Source: Pseudomonas chlororaphis subsp. chlororaphis
Lineage (GTDB): Bacteria; Pseudomonadota; Gammaproteobacteria; Pseudomonadales; Pseudomonadaceae
Length of the DNA stretch: 64,000 bases
Direction of reading: 5' to 3'
NCBI RefSeq assembly: GCF_003945765.1
Contig: NZ_CP027712.1
Span: forward strand, 868,001-932,000
The notes below the pieces were generated by a model. It made no database searches. It saw only the letters and a list, made by a program, of their open reading frames with translations, and was not told where the DNA came from. Both the position numbers and the translations under genes were made by a program. Positions 25,740-48,253 of the stretch are shown here, one piece after another (position 1 is the stretch's first letter; every line of letters starts with the position of its first letter).

Positions 25740-26040
25740 TGGTTCCGCCCTTACGGCGGGTCACTTTTGGCAAACGCCCGGAATGCCGGCCCAGCCAAAA
25801 GTAACCAAAAAGTCTTGCCCCTGCGTACGGCCTTCGCTGCGCTCAGGTTTCCTCGCTCCGGCGTCCATCAGGGGGCATCGACTCCGGTCGGCTTCGCTTC
25901 GACCTCCATACGATGTCCTCGACTGCGTCGAGGGGCGCTACGCGCCATCCCCCTGATGAACACCGGAACGAAGCCTTCCGATGGGGCGGGCAGATCAAGA
26001 TCAAAAGCTGCGCCATGCGCGACCTACCGGTCGGCGCTAA
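25740..26040. other. Non-coding block without a supported gene
   Basis: This block contains several overlapping ATG frames in all phases. None has a ribosome-binding site or family-like sequence. From memory, similar blocks (GTTCCGCCCTTACGGCGGGT..., then AAAAGTAACCAAAAAGTC) recur between genes in Pseudomonas genomes and are often mis-annotated as short ORFs. I treat it as dispersed repeat DNA. Confidence 0.45.
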
Positions 26041-26044
26041 CTCC

Positions 26045-26161
26045 TGTAGCCGCTGCCGAGCCCGCGAGGCTGCGATCGACTGCGCAGCAGGCGCAGGGAT
26101 TTTGAAACCGCTGGAGGACCTTCGGTCCTATCGCAGCCTCGCGGGCTCGGCAGCGGCTACA
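26045..26161. repeat. REPIN (TGTAGCCGCTGCC family)
   Basis: Perfect terminal inverted arms TGTAGCCGCTGCCGAGCCCG and reverse complement enclose about 75 bases, including a GACCTTCGGTC hairpin. A single REP head of the other family (TGTAGGAGCGAGCTTGCTC) follows at about 26184-26206. Confidence 0.88.
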
Positions 26162-26289
26162 GACCGGTTATATCGGCGCTTTTTGTAGGAGCGAGCTTGC
26201 TCGCGATCAGGTCCTGCGGATGACGTGTTTTGTCGTGTAGGACGCTGTCTGAAAGTGAGGCTCTTCGCTTTATCTTGTAAGGCTTTTCC

Positions 26290-26575
26290 GAGAAACTCCG
26301 GGGCGCTTGCGTCTGGGAAGGGGGCTGTCTAGCCTCGGGTTCGTCACCGGTTTTTCGGTGATCGGGTTTAGCAGCTCGAGGAAAATCCAGACGTACAAGC
26401 TCCCTATCTAACTCGTTGGCATTTCTTGTCGACTTGTTTGTTATGGCAGCTGTGCGCGGGGCACCCTTGGGTGCGCTGGGTCTCTGGAGTCCTGGTCTGC
26501 TAACCCGCGTATAGCTGCCACCCTATTTTCGTTTAGCAGCGACGGGTGATGGCTCCACTACTCCGGAGTTACGCC
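26290..26575 (+). promoter_or_regulatory. Candidate structured 5' leader RNA, copy 1
   Basis: The region before the small gene at 26576 has the same layout as 43050-43335 (minus strand). Stem P0 is 26344-26349/26356-26361 (TCACCG/CGGTGA). P1 is TGGCAGCT 26444-26451 with AGCTGCCA 26513-26520. P2 is CGCGGG 26455-26460 with CCCGCG 26504-26509. P3 is the hairpin GCACC-CTTG-GGTGC 26461-26474. TTTAGCAGC occurs at 26367-26375 and again at 26532-26540, and the complementary CTGCTAA lies between them at 26497-26503, so two alternative pairings are possible. GGCTCC (26551-26556) can pair with the GGAG ribosome-binding site at 26565-26568. Paired base changes against copy 2 support RNA structure. A translational control element is inferred; the ligand or trigger is unknown. 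Confidence 0.7.
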
Positions 26576-26959
26576 ATGAAAAAGCTCGTCCCCGATCCAC
26601 CCGTTTCCCTTCCGTGCTCGCGTAGAAATCCTGAGCATGATCGTGCCAACGAAAGCATTCTTCAGGCGCTGTGCCTGCATCGTGGTGATGGTTCGCCGAT
26701 GGATGCGCTCAAGCCAACCGTGGGCACTGTCGTTGGCCAGGATTCGTTGTTTTGTGTGCGTGAAGGCATCAGCGCCGAGGAGGCGTTGCTTCACGTTTCG
26801 ATCCTGCTCAAGGCGGCCGAAGAGGTGTCCGATGAGATCACCGAGCGGGCCAGTGGCGTGGAGCGTGGCCTGATCTGGTCGCTGATCCATAACGTGGAGA
26901 TGGCGCGGGGTGTGGTGGATGCGCTGCTAGACGGCAGCCGCCCGCCCACGCAGGCCTGA
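26576..26959 (+). CDS. Small Pseudomonas protein, paralogue 1 (DUF3077/DUF6124-like)
   Basis: A 127-residue soluble protein, MKKLVPDPP..., with a conserved C-terminal half: DSLFCVREGISAEEALLHVS, then LLKAAEEVSDEITERASG and IWSLIHNVEMARGVVDALLD, a predicted helical bundle. The family name is from memory; such short proteins are abundant in Pseudomonas and have no established function. The start at 26576 gives the same N-terminus as the second copy at 42663-43049 and has GGAG upstream. The first 9 and last about 70 residues are nearly the same in the two copies, while the middle (about residues 10-55) differs. It is preceded by the structured leader and followed at once by a 7-base tandem repeat. 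Confidence 0.75.
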   Translation: MKKLVPDPPVSLPCSRRNPEHDRANESILQALCLHRGDGSPMDALKPTVGTVVGQDSLFCVREGISAEEALLHVSILLKAAEEVSDEITERASGVERGLIWSLIHNVEMARGVVDALLDGSRPPTQA

Positions 26960-26963
26960 ACCC

Positions 26964-27040
26964 GAACTCCGAACTCCGAACTCCGAACTCTGAACTCTGA
27001 ACTCTGAACTCCGAACCCCGAACCCCGAACCCCGAACCTT
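26964..27040. repeat. Heptanucleotide tandem repeat, 11 units
   Basis: Eleven consecutive 7-base units of the form GAAC(T/C)(C/T)(C/T): GAACTCC, GAACTCT, GAACCCC and a final GAACCTT, in runs of like units. It starts four bases after the stop codon of the small paralogue. Such arrays change length by slippage; here any effect would be on the transcript end, not on a reading frame. Confidence 0.92.
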
Positions 27041-27054
27041 GGGACTTGGAACCC

Positions 27055-27162
27055 TGTAGCCGCTGCCGAGCCCGCGAGGCTGCGATCGACTGCGCAGCAG
27101 GCGCAAGGTCTTGAGACCGCCGAAGGCCTTCGGCCTTATTGCAGCCTGCGGCAGCGGCTACA
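27055..27162. repeat. REPIN (TGTAGCCGCTGCC family), hybrid arms
   Basis: The left arm matches the CCGAGCCCGCGAGGCTGCGATCG type, while the right arm matches the CGCAGGCTGC type seen at 4848. The inner hairpin is AAGGCCTTCGGCCTT. It separates the tandem repeat from the convergent chemoreceptor gene. Confidence 0.82.
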
Positions 27163-27223
27163 GGGATTGGGGAGGGTGGGCGGCCTATCGCGAGCGAGGT
27201 TGCTCGCGATAGGGCCTTGAGGG

Positions 27224-42593: not shown

Positions 42594-42662
42594 GTGTTTA
42601 GCAGATGCCTTAAGGAACAGCGCGACAGGTCATGCTGCCGCGCCGTGCTTTCGTGGGGCGTT

Positions 42663-43049
42663 CTACTTCAGCGATGGCGTGTGGCGACTGCCATCGAGCA
42701 AGGCATCCACCACGGCCCGCGCCATCTCCACCGAGTGCACCAGTGACCAGATCAAACCGCGCTCAATGCCACTGCCACGCTCGGTGATTTCATCGGAAAC
42801 CTCCTCGGCGCTTTTCAGCAGCAGGGAGACATGGAGCAGGGCTTCTTCGGCGTTGATGCCTTCCCGAACCGAGAACAAAGAATCGCGGCTCACCGGGATA
42901 CTGACGGTTTTTTTGAGCGACTGAATCAGAGACGCATCAGCAGGCTGAACTGACAGTTTCTGCCGGATGTGCTTATTGGCCAGATCGTGTTCGAGGTTTC
43001 TGCCGCGATGGGTAGCAGTGAGGGGCGGATCGGGGACGAGCTTTTTCAT
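42663..43049 (-). CDS. Small Pseudomonas protein, paralogue 2 (DUF3077/DUF6124-like)
   Basis: A 128-residue paralogue of the protein at 26576-26959. It has the same start, MKKLVPDPP, a different middle (LTATHRGRNLEHDLANKHIR...) and an almost identical C-terminal half (DSLFSVREGINAEEALLHVS, LLKSAEEVSDEITERGSG, IWSLVHSVEMARAVVDALLD). The start at 43049 is fixed by the paralogue and the GGAG site within the leader hairpin; the longer open frame to 43208 covers the leader RNA. The duplicate has kept both protein ends and the whole regulatory leader, which suggests the leader and gene function as one module. It stands at the left edge of the AT-rich accessory region. Confidence 0.75.
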   Translation of the reverse strand: MKKLVPDPPLTATHRGRNLEHDLANKHIRQKLSVQPADASLIQSLKKTVSIPVSRDSLFSVREGINAEEALLHVSLLLKSAEEVSDEITERGSGIERGLIWSLVHSVEMARAVVDALLDGSRHTPSLK

Positions 43050-43335
43050 GGCGTAACTCCTAGTACAGAGATAGGAGCCATCACCGTCGCTGCTAAACGA
43101 TAGGGTGGCGGCCGTTCGCAGGTTAGCAGACCGGTGTACTAGGAACCCGGCGCACCCGAAGGTGCCCTGCGCACGGCCGCCATAAAGCGGAGCCAAAAAA
43201 AGCGCCACGTAATGGGAGCGCCATGCACCTAGTTACACGTCGAGCTGCTAAACCCGGTCACTGAATTTGCAGTGACGAATCGAGGCTAGCCAGTGCGGGG
43301 CGGTAGGCGCAAGCGGCTGGGAGTTTCTAGGAAAA
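43050..43335 (-). promoter_or_regulatory. Candidate structured 5' leader RNA, copy 2
   Basis: Same layout as 26290-26575, read on the minus strand. P0 is TCACTG/CAGTGA 43258-43263/43270-43275. P1 is TGGCGGCCGT/ACGGCCGCCA 43106-43115/43173-43182. P2 is CGCAGG/CCTGCG 43117-43122/43166-43171. P3 has loop TTCG on the minus strand (43152-43165). The paired elements TTTAGCAGC (43244-43252 and 43089-43097) and CTGCTAA (43123-43129) are kept. The hairpin CTCCTA/TAGGAG (43057-43062/43072-43077) covers the ribosome-binding site more tightly than in copy 1. The upstream blocks (AGAAACTCC..., CTAGCCTCG) are also shared. Confidence 0.7.
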
Positions 43336-44437
43336 TTCGCACAATAGAAAGAGACTTGACGCTGCTCCGAGGGCGCGAATGCTAGGTCTGCTATTGCGAG
43401 GAGGGAGGCGTGGCAATGACGAGTTGGAGTGCTGAGGGTCAAAAACAATACATGGCACTTTCTACTGGGTGATTTTTCACCGCCGAGTAATACGCAAAAT
43501 ATCCGAGTTCAGTCCTCGACGGGTGGTGAGTCTGTCTCCTCGAAATCGTAGTCGACGCAACAGGATGCTCATCACCGCTCCGGATTAGGGTAGTGGTCAT
43601 TCATGGGGGTCACAAACTCGCTATTTGAGGCTCGTTCGTGGGGGAGAGTTCGTGCAATGTAGCTCGACGCAAAGGTGGTCGCCAGGATGATCTGACCTCC
43701 GATATCGGTAAGGCAAGTGTCACGACACGTTTTACTATTTTCCAAAACGTGTCGCGTACTGAGCATCGGACTTGGATGATCCCCGCCGGGGAAATCCTCT
43801 TGATCGGTGGTATTTAGATACCTGAGATCCTTGGGGCTAAAGCCACCGTGGCCGGGGCGAAGTGATGGAATCTCACTGTGGCCTAGATGACTCAAATATA
43901 AGCCTGAATCACAATTAAGCGGCACCTGCTCCGACCTGCTGTCAGGTCGGCGGACGCTCCGTTAAATACTTGACGAGTACCAAGGGCTAGCACGCTGCCT
44001 CTCATGCTGGAAACGGCACAGGGCGTGGGCTGCAGAGGAACTGACCGGCGTCTGCTGGCGAAAATCCGTCAAGGCCCTGTCAAGAATTGTTTGGTGCGCT
44101 AAGGACTTAACTGCCACGGTAGTCAGCCCCCCCATCCGCCGAGGCAGGTCTGTGTTTTGTTTAGCGGTTCTCGACGGTTTCCTCAGGTGGTTCTTTATAT
44201 GACTAGCGCCAGCTTATATCGGCGAATTCCGCAAATGAGATGAAGCCGGCTTGTTTTTCGATACATCATCGCAAAGAAAATTTAGCTATACCTTTGATTA
44301 TTAATATTTTTTTCATGAGAAAAAATGAGATTTTTTTCCTCGACGACTGGAACCTTAATCAAATAAGCTGCTGGCATCCTAGAGAAACCTGCATAAAACT
44401 ACTTTGATAACGTTTGCTGACCTAGCACGGAGGCCAG
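43336..44437. other. AT-richer region without a convincing gene (about 1.1 kb)
   Basis: No gene could be supported. A GTG-started minus-strand frame (43572-43925, 117 codons) has no recognisable features. Structures seen: an 11-bp perfect inverted repeat CGACACGTTTT/AAAACGTGTCG at 43723-43733/43744-43754, and an 8-bp hairpin CCGACCTG/CAGGTCGG at 43931-43950. The last 250 bases are strongly AT-rich (runs of A and T around 44280-44340) and probably hold the promoter of the TIR gene. The composition differs from the flanking core genes, which suits acquired DNA. Confidence 0.5.
43723..43754. repeat. 11-bp perfect inverted repeat
   Basis: CGACACGTTTT and AAAACGTGTCG around a 10-base spacer (ACTATTTTCC). 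It lies about 690 bases upstream of the TIR-STAND gene. Could be an operator, a recombination site or a transcript hairpin; no T-run follows. Confidence 0.6.
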
Positions 44438-46993
44438 ATGAGTAAAGCATTCCTGTCTCACAGCAGTAGAGATAAAGAGTTTGTGAGACCAGTAGCTGAT
44501 GAACTGGGAAGCGCTCTTTCGCACTACGACGAAAGGACGTTTGAGCCCACAGGAGAGTCTGCAGGGGAAATTCTTGAGGCACTGAGCAACTCATCGGTGT
44601 TTGTTTTGTTTCTTTCAAAAAACGCTCTTGCTTCGCCTTGGGTTAAGCAAGAAATTCGATATGCGCAGCATATGTATTTTGAAGGAAAAATACAGCAGGT
44701 CGCGATATTTCCATTAGATGAAACGACAAGAGATTCTCTTGATGTATGGTTGAGGCCATTCGTCATTCAAATCCTGAAAAAACCGAAATTGGTTGCCCTC
44801 CGGCTTCGCTCAATATTAGCAATGAATGATACCCCGGCGAGCAGAAGATTTATCGGGCGTGACAAGCAAGTCAGCGATCTTAAAGATAGCCTTCGAGACA
44901 AGTCGTCAAGTCGCCCCTCAACAGTCTTGGTTTCAGGTATACAGGGCATCGGAAAGAGAAGGCTTTTAAGTCGAGCTTACCAAGATCTTTATCCTTTTTT
45001 GCCTAACTATTGGATCGAAATATATTTGGGCGCTTACGAGGGAGAGTCAGCTCTTTATGAACGGCTGCTTGACTACTTTGAACCAAACTCAACTTGGGCT
45101 AGCGCGAAAGAAAAGGCTGACGAATTTATAACGCTGACCCCCGTTGAGCGAACAGTGAAGCTTGCCGAAATATTGAACTTGGTTGAGGCTTCTAAGCAAG
45201 TGGTGCTGCTAAATTTTGTAGAGGACGCGTTTAATACTGATGGAAATATGGAGCCTTGGCTGCTGAGTGCTATTAGGGCAACAAAATCCAGTTATCCAGT
45301 GCTCGCAGTTGTTACATCGCGCGGCCCTAGTCCTAGGGCATTGGCAAACCTCAGCGATATCCCTTATCTGAAGCTTCACAGCATCGAGGAAAAGTATGCG
45401 AAGCAGTTATTGGAACTCCTGTGTGAAGACTCAATTGTTCAGGCGCCTGATGCTTTGGTGGAACATGTTACATCTCTCGTTGGTGGTCACCCAGGGCTCC
45501 TCGAACTTTCTGCGAAGCTTATAAAGGCAGCTGGTATAACGCGGTTTAAAATCGAACTGACGTCAAGTGATGAAAAATCAGCTCTGGAGGAATATGTTGA
45601 AAAGGCTATTCAAAATATCTCGCTTTCTGTAGTTGAAAGATCCGCAATGCTGTTGTTAGAAGAACTGGGAGGTGCGACTCGTGAGGATATCTTGCATGGC
45701 TTCTCTGAACAGGCCACTGGGAATGAGTTCTCTGCTAGTCTTGCCAAGCTTCTTGACTTCGGATTGATTGAAGATGCAGGGGGCGAGCTCCGATCTGCAT
45801 CGCATTTAAGGCTCATAATGCGTCGTTGGAAAAACGACAAGAAACTTCAAGATATTCTGATACCAGTTCGTCAGAAACTTGTTGAGATTCTTGATGAGGC
45901 ATTGTCATTAGAGGGTGGGACCTATCTCTCAATTCGAGCACCGATTGCTGCGGCTATTCGAGCAGATGGTGACTTTAGTAACGTTCTCGTTAGCAAACCG
46001 CTGCTTGCGGCTCAGCAACTGCGTGTGGCAAGGCGTCTTTATGATGAACGCTCACTAGTGACAGCAGCAGAGAAAGCAAAAAAAGCGTTCGAAAATCAAC
46101 TGGCTCTTAGTGATGATGGAGTAATTGAGGCGCTAAGGATTTTAGGGCTGGTCGGTGCAAGAACGAAAAATATTGATCTTAAAGACTTCGCTTGTCGCCA
46201 ATTGAATATGTTGCATAGTGATAAAGCGAAGCGAATATCAGCGTTCATAAACGGTTTCGAAAGGCGCCTGTCAGGCGAGTTCAAGGAAGCAGAACAACAG
46301 CTTCGTGTTGCACTTGGAATCGGAGGCAGTGGAGATTTTCATTTGCTTCGTGAATTGGCGGCCTCTTTACTAGAACAAGGAAAGACTCAAGAGGCAGAAA
46401 AATTCGCTCGAGGAGCTTTGCGTATTGCTCCGACTAATCCTTATGTACTGGATATCCTAGCAGCTTGCCTTATCGACAGATTTCGTGAATCCCCGAATGA
46501 TGTGGGGCTTGAAAAAGAAGTGAAAGAGCTATTGGATAGATTGGTCACGTCGGACGAAAGGGAGCATCAGTCGTTTAGCAAACGTCGGAAAATTGCTTTT
46601 CTGATAGTAAAACGTGACTATTCGAAAGCTTGGATAATGCTCAACAGGGAATCCTCTAGCGAAAGTAAAACCTGGTACAAATTGTTAGCAGCTGAATGTT
46701 TTTTTAAAGAGGGCAACCCACGTGAAGCTCTTGAACAACTCGAAGGTTTGTACCGGCCGCCCTCCGTTCTAGATGATGAATCTGTTGTGCAATTCTATCA
46801 AATTAGACGACTTCGTGTTCTTTCCTTGGCTGATGCTGGGAGGCTAGATGAGGCAGTTGGTGAGTTTGAAAAAGTAGGCCGATTTCTTGATTCAAAGCAT
46901 CGTGATTCGTTACGAAAGGAGTTGGTTTTTGAAATTGCGAAATCAAAAATTTCAAAATCCGATATTGTAATTAATTTTGCGAAACACGACTAA
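44438..46993 (+). CDS. TIR-STAND-TPR protein, predicted NLR-like antiphage defence protein
   Basis: An 851-residue protein. Residues 1 to about 130 are a TIR domain: KAFLSHSSRDKEFV (7-12 SHSSRD), ALSNSSVFVLFLSKNAL, and SPWVKQEI with Glu72 at the catalytic position of NAD-cleaving TIRs. RFIGRDKQVSDL (137-148) opens a STAND ATPase. Its P-loop is SGIQGIGKRR (G167-K173), where the usual Ser/Thr after Lys is Arg174. The Walker-B-like strand is VVLLNFVED (255-263), a sensor TSR is at 293-295, and GGHPGLLEL (349-357) is the GxP motif. The C-terminal half is helical with TPR-like repeats (FKEAEQQLRVALG, TQEAEKFARGALRIAP). Such proteins sense phage components and then deplete NAD. GGAGG precedes the ATG. 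Its AT-rich codons differ from the neighbours, a sign of transfer. Confidence 0.82.
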   Translation: MSKAFLSHSSRDKEFVRPVADELGSALSHYDERTFEPTGESAGEILEALSNSSVFVLFLSKNALASPWVKQEIRYAQHMYFEGKIQQVAIFPLDETTRDSLDVWLRPFVIQILKKPKLVALRLRSILAMNDTPASRRFIGRDKQVSDLKDSLRDKSSSRPSTVLVSGIQGIGKRRLLSRAYQDLYPFLPNYWIEIYLGAYEGESALYERLLDYFEPNSTWASAKEKADEFITLTPVERTVKLAEILNLVEASKQVVLLNFVEDAFNTDGNMEPWLLSAIRATKSSYPVLAVVTSRGPSPRALANLSDIPYLKLHSIEEKYAKQLLELLCEDSIVQAPDALVEHVTSLVGGHPGLLELSAKLIKAAGITRFKIELTSSDEKSALEEYVEKAIQNISLSVVERSAMLLLEELGGATREDILHGFSEQATGNEFSASLAKLLDFGLIEDAGGELRSASHLRLIMRRWKNDKKLQDILIPVRQKLVEILDEALSLEGGTYLSIRAPIAAAIRADGDFSNVLVSKPLLAAQQLRVARRLYDERSLVTAAEKAKKAFENQLALSDDGVIEALRILGLVGARTKNIDLKDFACRQLNMLHSDKAKRISAFINGFERRLSGEFKEAEQQLRVALGIGGSGDFHLLRELAASLLEQGKTQEAEKFARGALRIAPTNPYVLDILAACLIDRFRESPNDVGLEKEVKELLDRLVTSDEREHQSFSKRRKIAFLIVKRDYSKAWIMLNRESSSESKTWYKLLAAECFFKEGNPREALEQLEGLYRPPSVLDDESVVQFYQIRRLRVLSLADAGRLDEAVGEFEKVGRFLDSKHRDSLRKELVFEIAKSKISKSDIVINFAKHD

Positions 46994-47861: not shown

Positions 47862-48253
47862 TGGTGGAGCCGGGGGGATTTGAACCCCCGTCCGCCAGTA
47901 CTCCGCTGTCGGTACTACATGCGTAGCCGTGTCTATTGAGTTAACCCTCAGCGACCCGACGGGCAGGGTGCTTTGGGCGAGTTGTGTAAGTTTTAGCCGC
48001 TTCGTCCACAACGTACTGCACGGCGATTCTGTTCTGTATGACAATCATTTCGGGTTTACAGACATCCCCTGATGATTGCTGGACCCGAAGGTACCAGAAG
48101 GAAGGCTAGCGCCGCTTACGCAGCGAGAGCGTATTCCCCGTAGGTTTCGTCATTGGCAACTATAGGAAGTTGCAACAGTGGATTTACGAGTTCTGTTACC
48201 AACTCGGCATGCACCTAAAGTTTCGCAACCGGCGTCGAATCCTAAACGGCCCC
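47862..48253 (-). ncRNA. ssrA: Transfer-messenger RNA (tmRNA)
   Basis: Minus-strand RNA of about 392 nt. The 5' end GGGGCCGTTTAGGATTCGAC pairs with the 3' end CGGCTCCACCA (seven pairs, one G-U), and the T arm GGGGGTTCAAATCCCCCC is complete. The resume reading frame GCC AAT GAC GAA ACC TAC GGG GAA TAC GCT CTC GCT GCG TAA gives the tag ANDETYGEYALAA, preceded in the product by the tRNA-borne Ala. It frees stalled ribosomes with SmpB, whose gene is at 57585-58067. Its 3' end faces the accessory region and is a well-known attachment site of integrative elements. Confidence 0.96.

Follow-up and report, generated by a model that had tools for sequence, protein, structure and literature searches.

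C4 antisense RNA is an established part of the immunity of phages and prophages. Citron and Schuster, in work from 1990 cited in PMC2864571, reportedly established that the founding C4 RNA acts in trans. A comparable pairing of gene and regulator occurs in the multi-copy type I toxin-antitoxin families, in which a small gene and its antisense RNA are repeated and paralogues have their own partners. In phages P1 and P7, C4 (RF01695) and its targets (RF03163) follow the order a1-b1-C4-a2-b2-gene, with b2 lying on the ribosome-binding site. IsrK of the Salmonella prophage Gifsy-1 (RF01394) is described as an activator that opens a closed read-through transcript. The CI RNA of satellite P4 is likewise antisense; its targets flank it within one transcript, and it acts on termination.

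The window studied here is the whole 64,000-nt stretch of Pseudomonas chlororaphis subsp. chlororaphis DNA at positions 868,001-932,000 of the forward strand of NZ_CP027712.1 (GCF_003945765.1). Two paralogous genes start in it at 26576 (copy 1, plus strand) and 43049 (copy 2, minus strand), consistent with the leader limits given in a preliminary description of the region. Judged by sequence, the anatomy of their leaders matches that of c4-icd-ant of phage P1. Both appear to be C4 antisense modules in which C4 lies between two target sites, the second covering the ribosome-binding site, and the identity of C4 itself is practically certain. Fold, element order, C4-to-start spacing and the position of b2 are shared with P1 and P7. 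However, the modules here are chromosomal and present in 20 copies in this genome, and a DUF6124/DUF3077 or unassigned small protein replaces icd-ant. An upstream target-site hairpin, a predicted read-through transcript and, in some Pseudomonas loci, a short upstream reading frame recall IsrK, whereas the window scores fall below the IsrK cut-off and no antQ/anrP genes were seen nearby. The targets on both sides of the RNA resemble the P4 arrangement, but Rfam gave no match to CI. Unlike in type I toxin-antitoxin systems, the antisense RNA lies within the leader of the same transcript, and the searches run on the regulated proteins gave no sign of a toxin.

C4-type anatomy of the two leaders

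The preliminary description had proposed a duplicated, structured leader RNA that it did not recognise as a known family. Rfam placed RF01695 at both copies above the cut-off of 45 bits (Table 1). A match to a known family was the outcome that the description had itself named against its reading, so the unknown-family interpretation falls and a new RNA family is ruled out. RF03163 (c4-a1b1) exceeded its cut-off at copy 2 only. Matches to isrK (RF01394) stayed under the cut-off of 50 at both copies (18.7 bits at copy 1; 45.9 at copy 2, spanning 43195-43276 and overlapping the terminator-like hairpin), and membership of the window leaders in IsrK was therefore rejected.

Phage P1 served as a control, its immunity region being taken from a public record and scanned with Rfam. 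This region scored 68.8 bits for C4, 51.0 for c4-a1b1 and a sub-threshold 35.1 for isrK; both window copies thus exceed P1's own C4 score. The P1 annotation runs a1, b1, C4, a2, b2, icd, with the start codon about 50 nt 3' of c4, and the a and b elements are named here as in P1 (a', linker; b', stem 3 loop). The start of the P1 a1b1 match, one base 5' of the -10 box in the annotation, suggests that RF03163 opens with conserved bases of the promoter and not of the RNA. This position backs the promoter candidate of copy 1. Promoter-like TTG...TA...T pairs lie 5' of the a1b1 hairpin in 12 of the 20 loci of the genome by a script search run without shuffle control; a stricter consensus scan gave no promoter in the window leaders, at copy 1 or copy 2.

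The paired base changes on which the preliminary description relied were all found in the sequences. Its P0 (TCACCG/CGGTGA against TCACTG/CAGTGA) is the upstream target hairpin, and its P3, in which a CUUG tetraloop is exchanged for UUCG, is the stem bearing the tetraloop. Double changes also occur in P1 (TGGCAGCT/AGCTGCCA against TGGCGGCC/GGCCGCCA) and P2 (CGCGGG/CCCGCG against CGCAGG/CCTGCG). These two hold as stems but not as separate ones, being the lower and upper part of a single 17-pair basal stem of C4. When covariation was examined over all 20 paralogues of the genome, 17 of 27 C4 pairs carried a change in both partners, where shuffles averaged 6.7 and none of 500 reached 17, and 97.6% of 540 cells were standard pairs. 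Sliding the pair partners abolished the signal. Together with the Rfam scores of both copies, this bears out a duplicated, functional structured RNA whose three-stem fold is maintained through compensatory change.

Table 1. Features of the two leaders and their genes (window positions)
Feature	Position	Strand	Remarks
Copy 1 promoter-like TTGCGT - 17 nt - TAGCCT	26307..26335	+	directly 5' of a1b1 hairpin; script search without shuffle control
Copy 1 a1b1 target region (hairpin = P0)	26329..26382	+	RF03163 29.1 bits, under cut-off 46.7
Copy 1 a1 TTAGCAG	26368-26374	+	inside a1b1 region
Copy 1 b1 candidate TCCAGA (weak)	26386..26391	+	6 pairs to C4 loop; by reading the sequence, run length 6
Copy 1 C4 antisense RNA	26439..26525	+	RF01695 75.7 bits, cut-off 45
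Copy 1 C4 stems	basal 26444-26460/26504-26520; stem 2 26461-26465/26470-26474; stem 3 26475-26479/26492-26496	+	
Copy 1 b' (stem 3 loop) GTCTCTGGAGTC	26480..26491	+	complementary to b2; -14.6 kcal/mol with own b2, -5.1 with copy 2 b2
Copy 1 a' (linker) CTGCTAA	26497..26503	+	complementary to a1 and a2; pairing-run scoring
Copy 1 a2 target TTAGCAG	26533..26539	+	loop of small predicted hairpin
Copy 1 b2 target ACTCCGGAG	26560..26568	+	includes Shine-Dalgarno GGAG 26565-26568
Copy 1 regulated gene, 127 aa, DUF6124/DUF3077-like	26576..26959	+	sub-cut-off Pfam matches
Copy 2 promoter-like TTGCGC - 18 nt - TAGCCT	43283..43312	-	script search without shuffle control
Copy 2 a1b1 target region, with hairpin at 43276-43257 and a1 (TTAGCAG) at 43251-43245	43237..43289	-	RF03163 54.8 bits, cut-off 46.7
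Copy 2 b1 (TGTAACTAGG, one additional base), followed by terminator-like hairpin with T run (43221-43195)	43195..43237	-	
Copy 2 C4 antisense RNA, with b' (loop) at 43146-43135 and a' (linker) at 43129-43123	43101..43187	-	RF01695 89.5 bits
Copy 2 a2 TTAGCAG (43096-43090) and b2 TGTACTAGGA (43067-43058)	43058..43096	-	b2 over Shine-Dalgarno site
Copy 2 regulated gene, 128 aa, DUF6124	42663..43049	-	PF19619 30.0 bits, cut-off 27

Several other features surround the two copies. From the stop codon of the gene of copy 1 onwards, the 7-base unit GAACTCC is repeated in tandem (11.6 copies, 26958-27037), and copy 1 is flanked on both sides (26040-26170 and 27057-27165) by similar GC-rich repeat blocks (CTGTAGCCGCTGCCGAGCCCGCGAGG...) that look REP-like by eye. 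A plus-strand gene (44438-46993) located between the tmRNA gene (47862-48253) and copy 2 is likely to serve in defence: its product of 851 aa combines a TIR domain at the N terminus with an AAA domain and with TPR repeats.

Predicted pairing of each C4 with its own targets

For the 19 loci of the genome with a target, the longest complementary run of each C4 element was scored against all leaders and compared with 20000 permutations. The b' loop scored a mean of 18.3 with b2 of its own leader against 10.7 with other loci, its own leader being best or tied in 15 of the 19 and sole best in 14. For a' and a2 the means were 14.1 and 8.7; here the own leader was best or tied in all 19 and sole best in only 7, because several loci share a'. 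The upstream targets behaved similarly (for b1, 16.1 own and 11.0 other, the own leader being best or tied in 9; for a1, 14.0 and 10.3, best or tied in 17). The observed score was reached by 0 of the 20000 permutations for each of a2, b2, a1 and b1, and an energy-based version agreed (0, 0, 5 and 0 of 100000 for the four comparisons), although the loci are related and these counts are not strict probabilities. A second genome, represented by 30 of its 35 matches, gave the same permutation count (0 of 20000), the own leader being best or tied in 15 of 30 for b'-b2 and in 29 of 30 for a'-a2.

The two window copies illustrate how the specificity is distributed. They share a' and differ in b', and their b' loops pair with their own b2 at -14.6 and -15.2 kcal/mol but across copies at -5.1 both ways. 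An antisense RNA that has two targets is preferred over a single cis-folding leader, since the variable C4 loop is complementary to the ribosome-binding site of its own copy but not to the other one; own-target complementarity by itself would fit trans action and a cis switch alike. In L090, a near relative of copy 2, b' and b2 have changed in step (own -15.0 kcal/mol; -6.2 to -8.3 across with L001). In three further near relatives (L088, L091 and L092) b' is shortened and the own pairing is weaker, at -11.6. The insulation is partial, since b' fits the leader of another locus better than its own in 4 of the 19 loci and in 15 of the 30 of the second genome. Versions of a' number about a dozen and b' is nearly locus-specific, and we therefore propose that the main target of most modules is the small gene behind them.

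Proposed mode of action and its alternatives

The best reading of these sequences is that the modules represent a domesticated and amplified phage immunity switch that would form partly insulated antisense circuits. Transcription from a putative promoter directly upstream would produce a transcript opening with the a1b1 hairpin. In some copies a terminator-like hairpin comes next, at which a fraction of the transcripts could end as a short IsrK-like RNA. The read-through RNA would bear C4, which we infer to be processed out as in P1 and to act in trans. Its a' linker would then pair with a2 and its b' loop with b2 over the Shine-Dalgarno site, and translation of the own gene would be blocked. 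C4-type antisense repression of each module's own gene is, in our judgement, well supported as a prediction. The upstream a1b1 element may serve as a decoy for C4, a role that we put forward with less confidence than repression.

It is also conceivable, if rather unlikely, that the short IsrK-like RNA activates by opening the closed read-through transcript, as has been described for IsrK of Gifsy-1, instead of C4 repressing. The sub-threshold isrK matches of both window copies and of P1 point in this direction, but the window scores remain under the isrK cut-off and clear terminators occur in few loci. The hairpin of copy 2 reaches -5.8 kcal/mol before 7 T, just short of the -6 bar, and a stricter terminator scan found none there; neither window copy reaches the bar. 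Hairpins passing -6 kcal/mol before C4 were found in 5 of the 20 loci (shuffles: mean 0.85, maximum 3), and terminator-like hairpins before C4 in 35 of 140 distinct loci against 5.3 in shuffles. Activation of this kind is compatible with C4 repression, as the second half of the same explanation.

A more doubtful alternative is that the leader works in cis only, the C4 fold and the a and b sites swapping structures within one transcript in the manner of an attenuator or riboswitch, with no free RNA. Every element does lie on one predicted transcript, and the Shine-Dalgarno site is already inside a predicted hairpin. The pairing with the GGAG site that the preliminary description had proposed was indeed predicted in both leaders; genome-wide it is just moderately above shuffles (mean z 1.26 over 19 leaders, above 1 in 10 of them). 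Single-sequence folds often place a2 in the loop of a small hairpin and the Shine-Dalgarno site in a second one, and the leaders are on average more stable than shuffles (mean z -1.44, n = 19; -1.38, n = 128). We used such folds and shuffles because the loops are too variable for MAFFT alignment, the RNAalifold consensus of 79 aligned leaders giving just three pairs. However, the founding member of the family acts in trans (PMC12197685), and target copies both upstream and downstream fit the titration of a free RNA.

We give marginally less credence still to the idea that C4 acts chiefly on transcription, by termination in the leader, and not on translation. The P4 CI RNA pairs with up- and downstream sites and causes termination, according to PMC4825925, and C4-bearing satellites do exist (phiAH14b and vB_Pae_U10). 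Yet b2 covers the Shine-Dalgarno site in the loci examined, and the scan found no terminator between C4 and the gene in either window leader.

C4 loci in Pseudomonas, their cargo and their probable history

The genome holds 20 C4 loci over the cut-off. In 18 of them a reading frame of 84-128 aa begins 48-53 nt 3' of C4; in L004 a 21-codon frame begins there and is followed by a DUF3077 gene. The remaining locus, L020 (G000:C1:271337-271423), retains C4 and a1b1, has no recognisable a2b2 and precedes a different, unrelated gene (135 aa, no Pfam match). Some C4 copies, such as this one, are decayed or re-used, and L020 might be an orphan C4 acting on other loci. One DUF6124 gene (L021) has no C4 inside its 3.2 kb locus.

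Within the genus, C4 was detected in 110 of 119 genomes at E <= 0.001 (109 over the cut-off). Sixteen genomes gave at least 33 scored candidates each; one searched singly had 35 matches, 34 of them over the cut-off, the highest count obtained, and the record of P. protegens FD6 had 18. In other Gammaproteobacteria, C4 was found in 17 of 273 genomes, at 1-6 per genome. DUF3077 occurs in 93 of the 119 Pseudomonas genomes and 0 of the 273 others. Its presence in 93 of 110 Pseudomonas genomes with C4 contrasts with 0 of the 9 without (Fisher test, 3e-7), 3 of these 9 being inferred from their absence among the positives. From 80 named loci fetched with the copy 2 protein, 70 carry C4, which in 68 lies 5' of the gene on the same strand. 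No description of chromosomal C4 arrays or of own-target specificity in Pseudomonas was found in the titles or abstract openings of the mainly open-access literature searched.

The small proteins fall into more than one group. Those of copies 1 and 2 are 66% identical; the latter passes the PF19619 (DUF6124) cut-off and the former stays below both PF19619 (22.9 bits, cut-off 27) and PF11275 (16.6, cut-off 21). In 10 of the 19 loci, DUF6124 or DUF3077 was matched at E <= 0.001. Three of the remaining nine were scanned and had no Pfam match, and a profile of seven of the nine showed no similarity to the DUF6124 and DUF3077 profiles (hhalign probability 0.2 and 0.3 of 100). These values and the limited share of DUF matches do not support a single homologous family for all regulated genes; by sequence comparison, the other loci constitute at least one further small-protein set without demonstrated homology. 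The 106 aa protein of L018 joins a DUF6124-type MKKVVPDPP start to a body of the second set and looks by eye like a natural chimera. Genes for icd or an antirepressor were not found downstream of the window C4 copies, where DUF6124 stands instead; membership of the C4 RNA family does not require them. In nine other Pseudomonas loci (L031, L032, L033, L043, L046, L047, L049, L050 and L054), a conserved frame of 52-54 codons lies directly after C4 and before the later genes, which recalls icd and orf45. Three examples were scanned and had no Pfam or NCBIfam match; in L031 the gene next but one is DUF3077. For the regulated proteins, an AlphaFold model gave a low-confidence helical hairpin (mean pLDDT 65), and 0 of 307 Foldseek matches reached E <= 0.001, those to Rop not being significant. 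As a wilder extension, the regulated proteins might act on RNA pairing as Rop does.

The copy 2 leader has distant DNA matches in 33 phage and 11 plasmid records, and Rfam confirmed C4 in three phage or satellite records. In the satellites phiAH14b and vB_Pae_U10, C4 adjoins integrase and primase genes. There it overlaps a 'hypothetical protein' (L178, 3103-3189, phiAH14b) and an 'excisionase and transcriptional regulator' (L177, 2273-2360, vB_Pae_U10), both annotations probably being mistaken. The copy 2 protein had no match at E 0.01 in phage or plasmid collections. Ten reading frames around both copies contained no phage domain in Pfam (three had no Pfam match at all), and the domains present were chemotaxis, transport, LysR, PAP2, phosphatase and TIR. 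The copy 1 neighbour recurs, with 89-96% conservation, at seven loci of relatives. The copy 2 unit (42610-43418, about 0.8 kb) is 86-93% conserved in five relatives, with flanks in three groups. Movement of this unit is not demonstrated, as the other flanks give just short, weak matches in this genome, and a mobile cassette was rejected on the same ground.

That the loci are merely decaying prophage immunity genes with no present function is very improbable: related C4 does occur in Pseudomonas phages, satellites and plasmid records, but fold and own-target pairing are maintained in nearly all copies, and the chromosomal surroundings, the conserved copy 1 neighbour and the missing phage or plasmid matches of the copy 2 protein speak against it. 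With C4 in phages and satellites and chromosomal neighbours here, the simplest history is that a phage or satellite module was taken up, changed its cargo and was amplified, the direction being the one we infer. In this way the Pseudomonas chromosome would have taken over a phage immunity switch and multiplied its modules.

The RNA family itself was already known; what is unusual here is the number, cargo and specificity of C4. We lean towards the view that Pseudomonas has made a phage switch into a gene-control system in which up to about 35 modules per genome use individual loop-to-ribosome-site codes and control families of small proteins. Modules that diverge after duplication by paired changes of loop and target may have become a natural set of orthogonal antisense regulators. 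If so, an RNA switch would have been multiplied along with its specificity code, much like evolved orthogonal regulators. The set makes it testable how an antisense RNA and its target change together without loss of control. The link to C4 would also provide a first handle on the DUF3077 and DUF6124 proteins, and the modules would offer ready-made, insulated RNA regulators for soil Pseudomonas.
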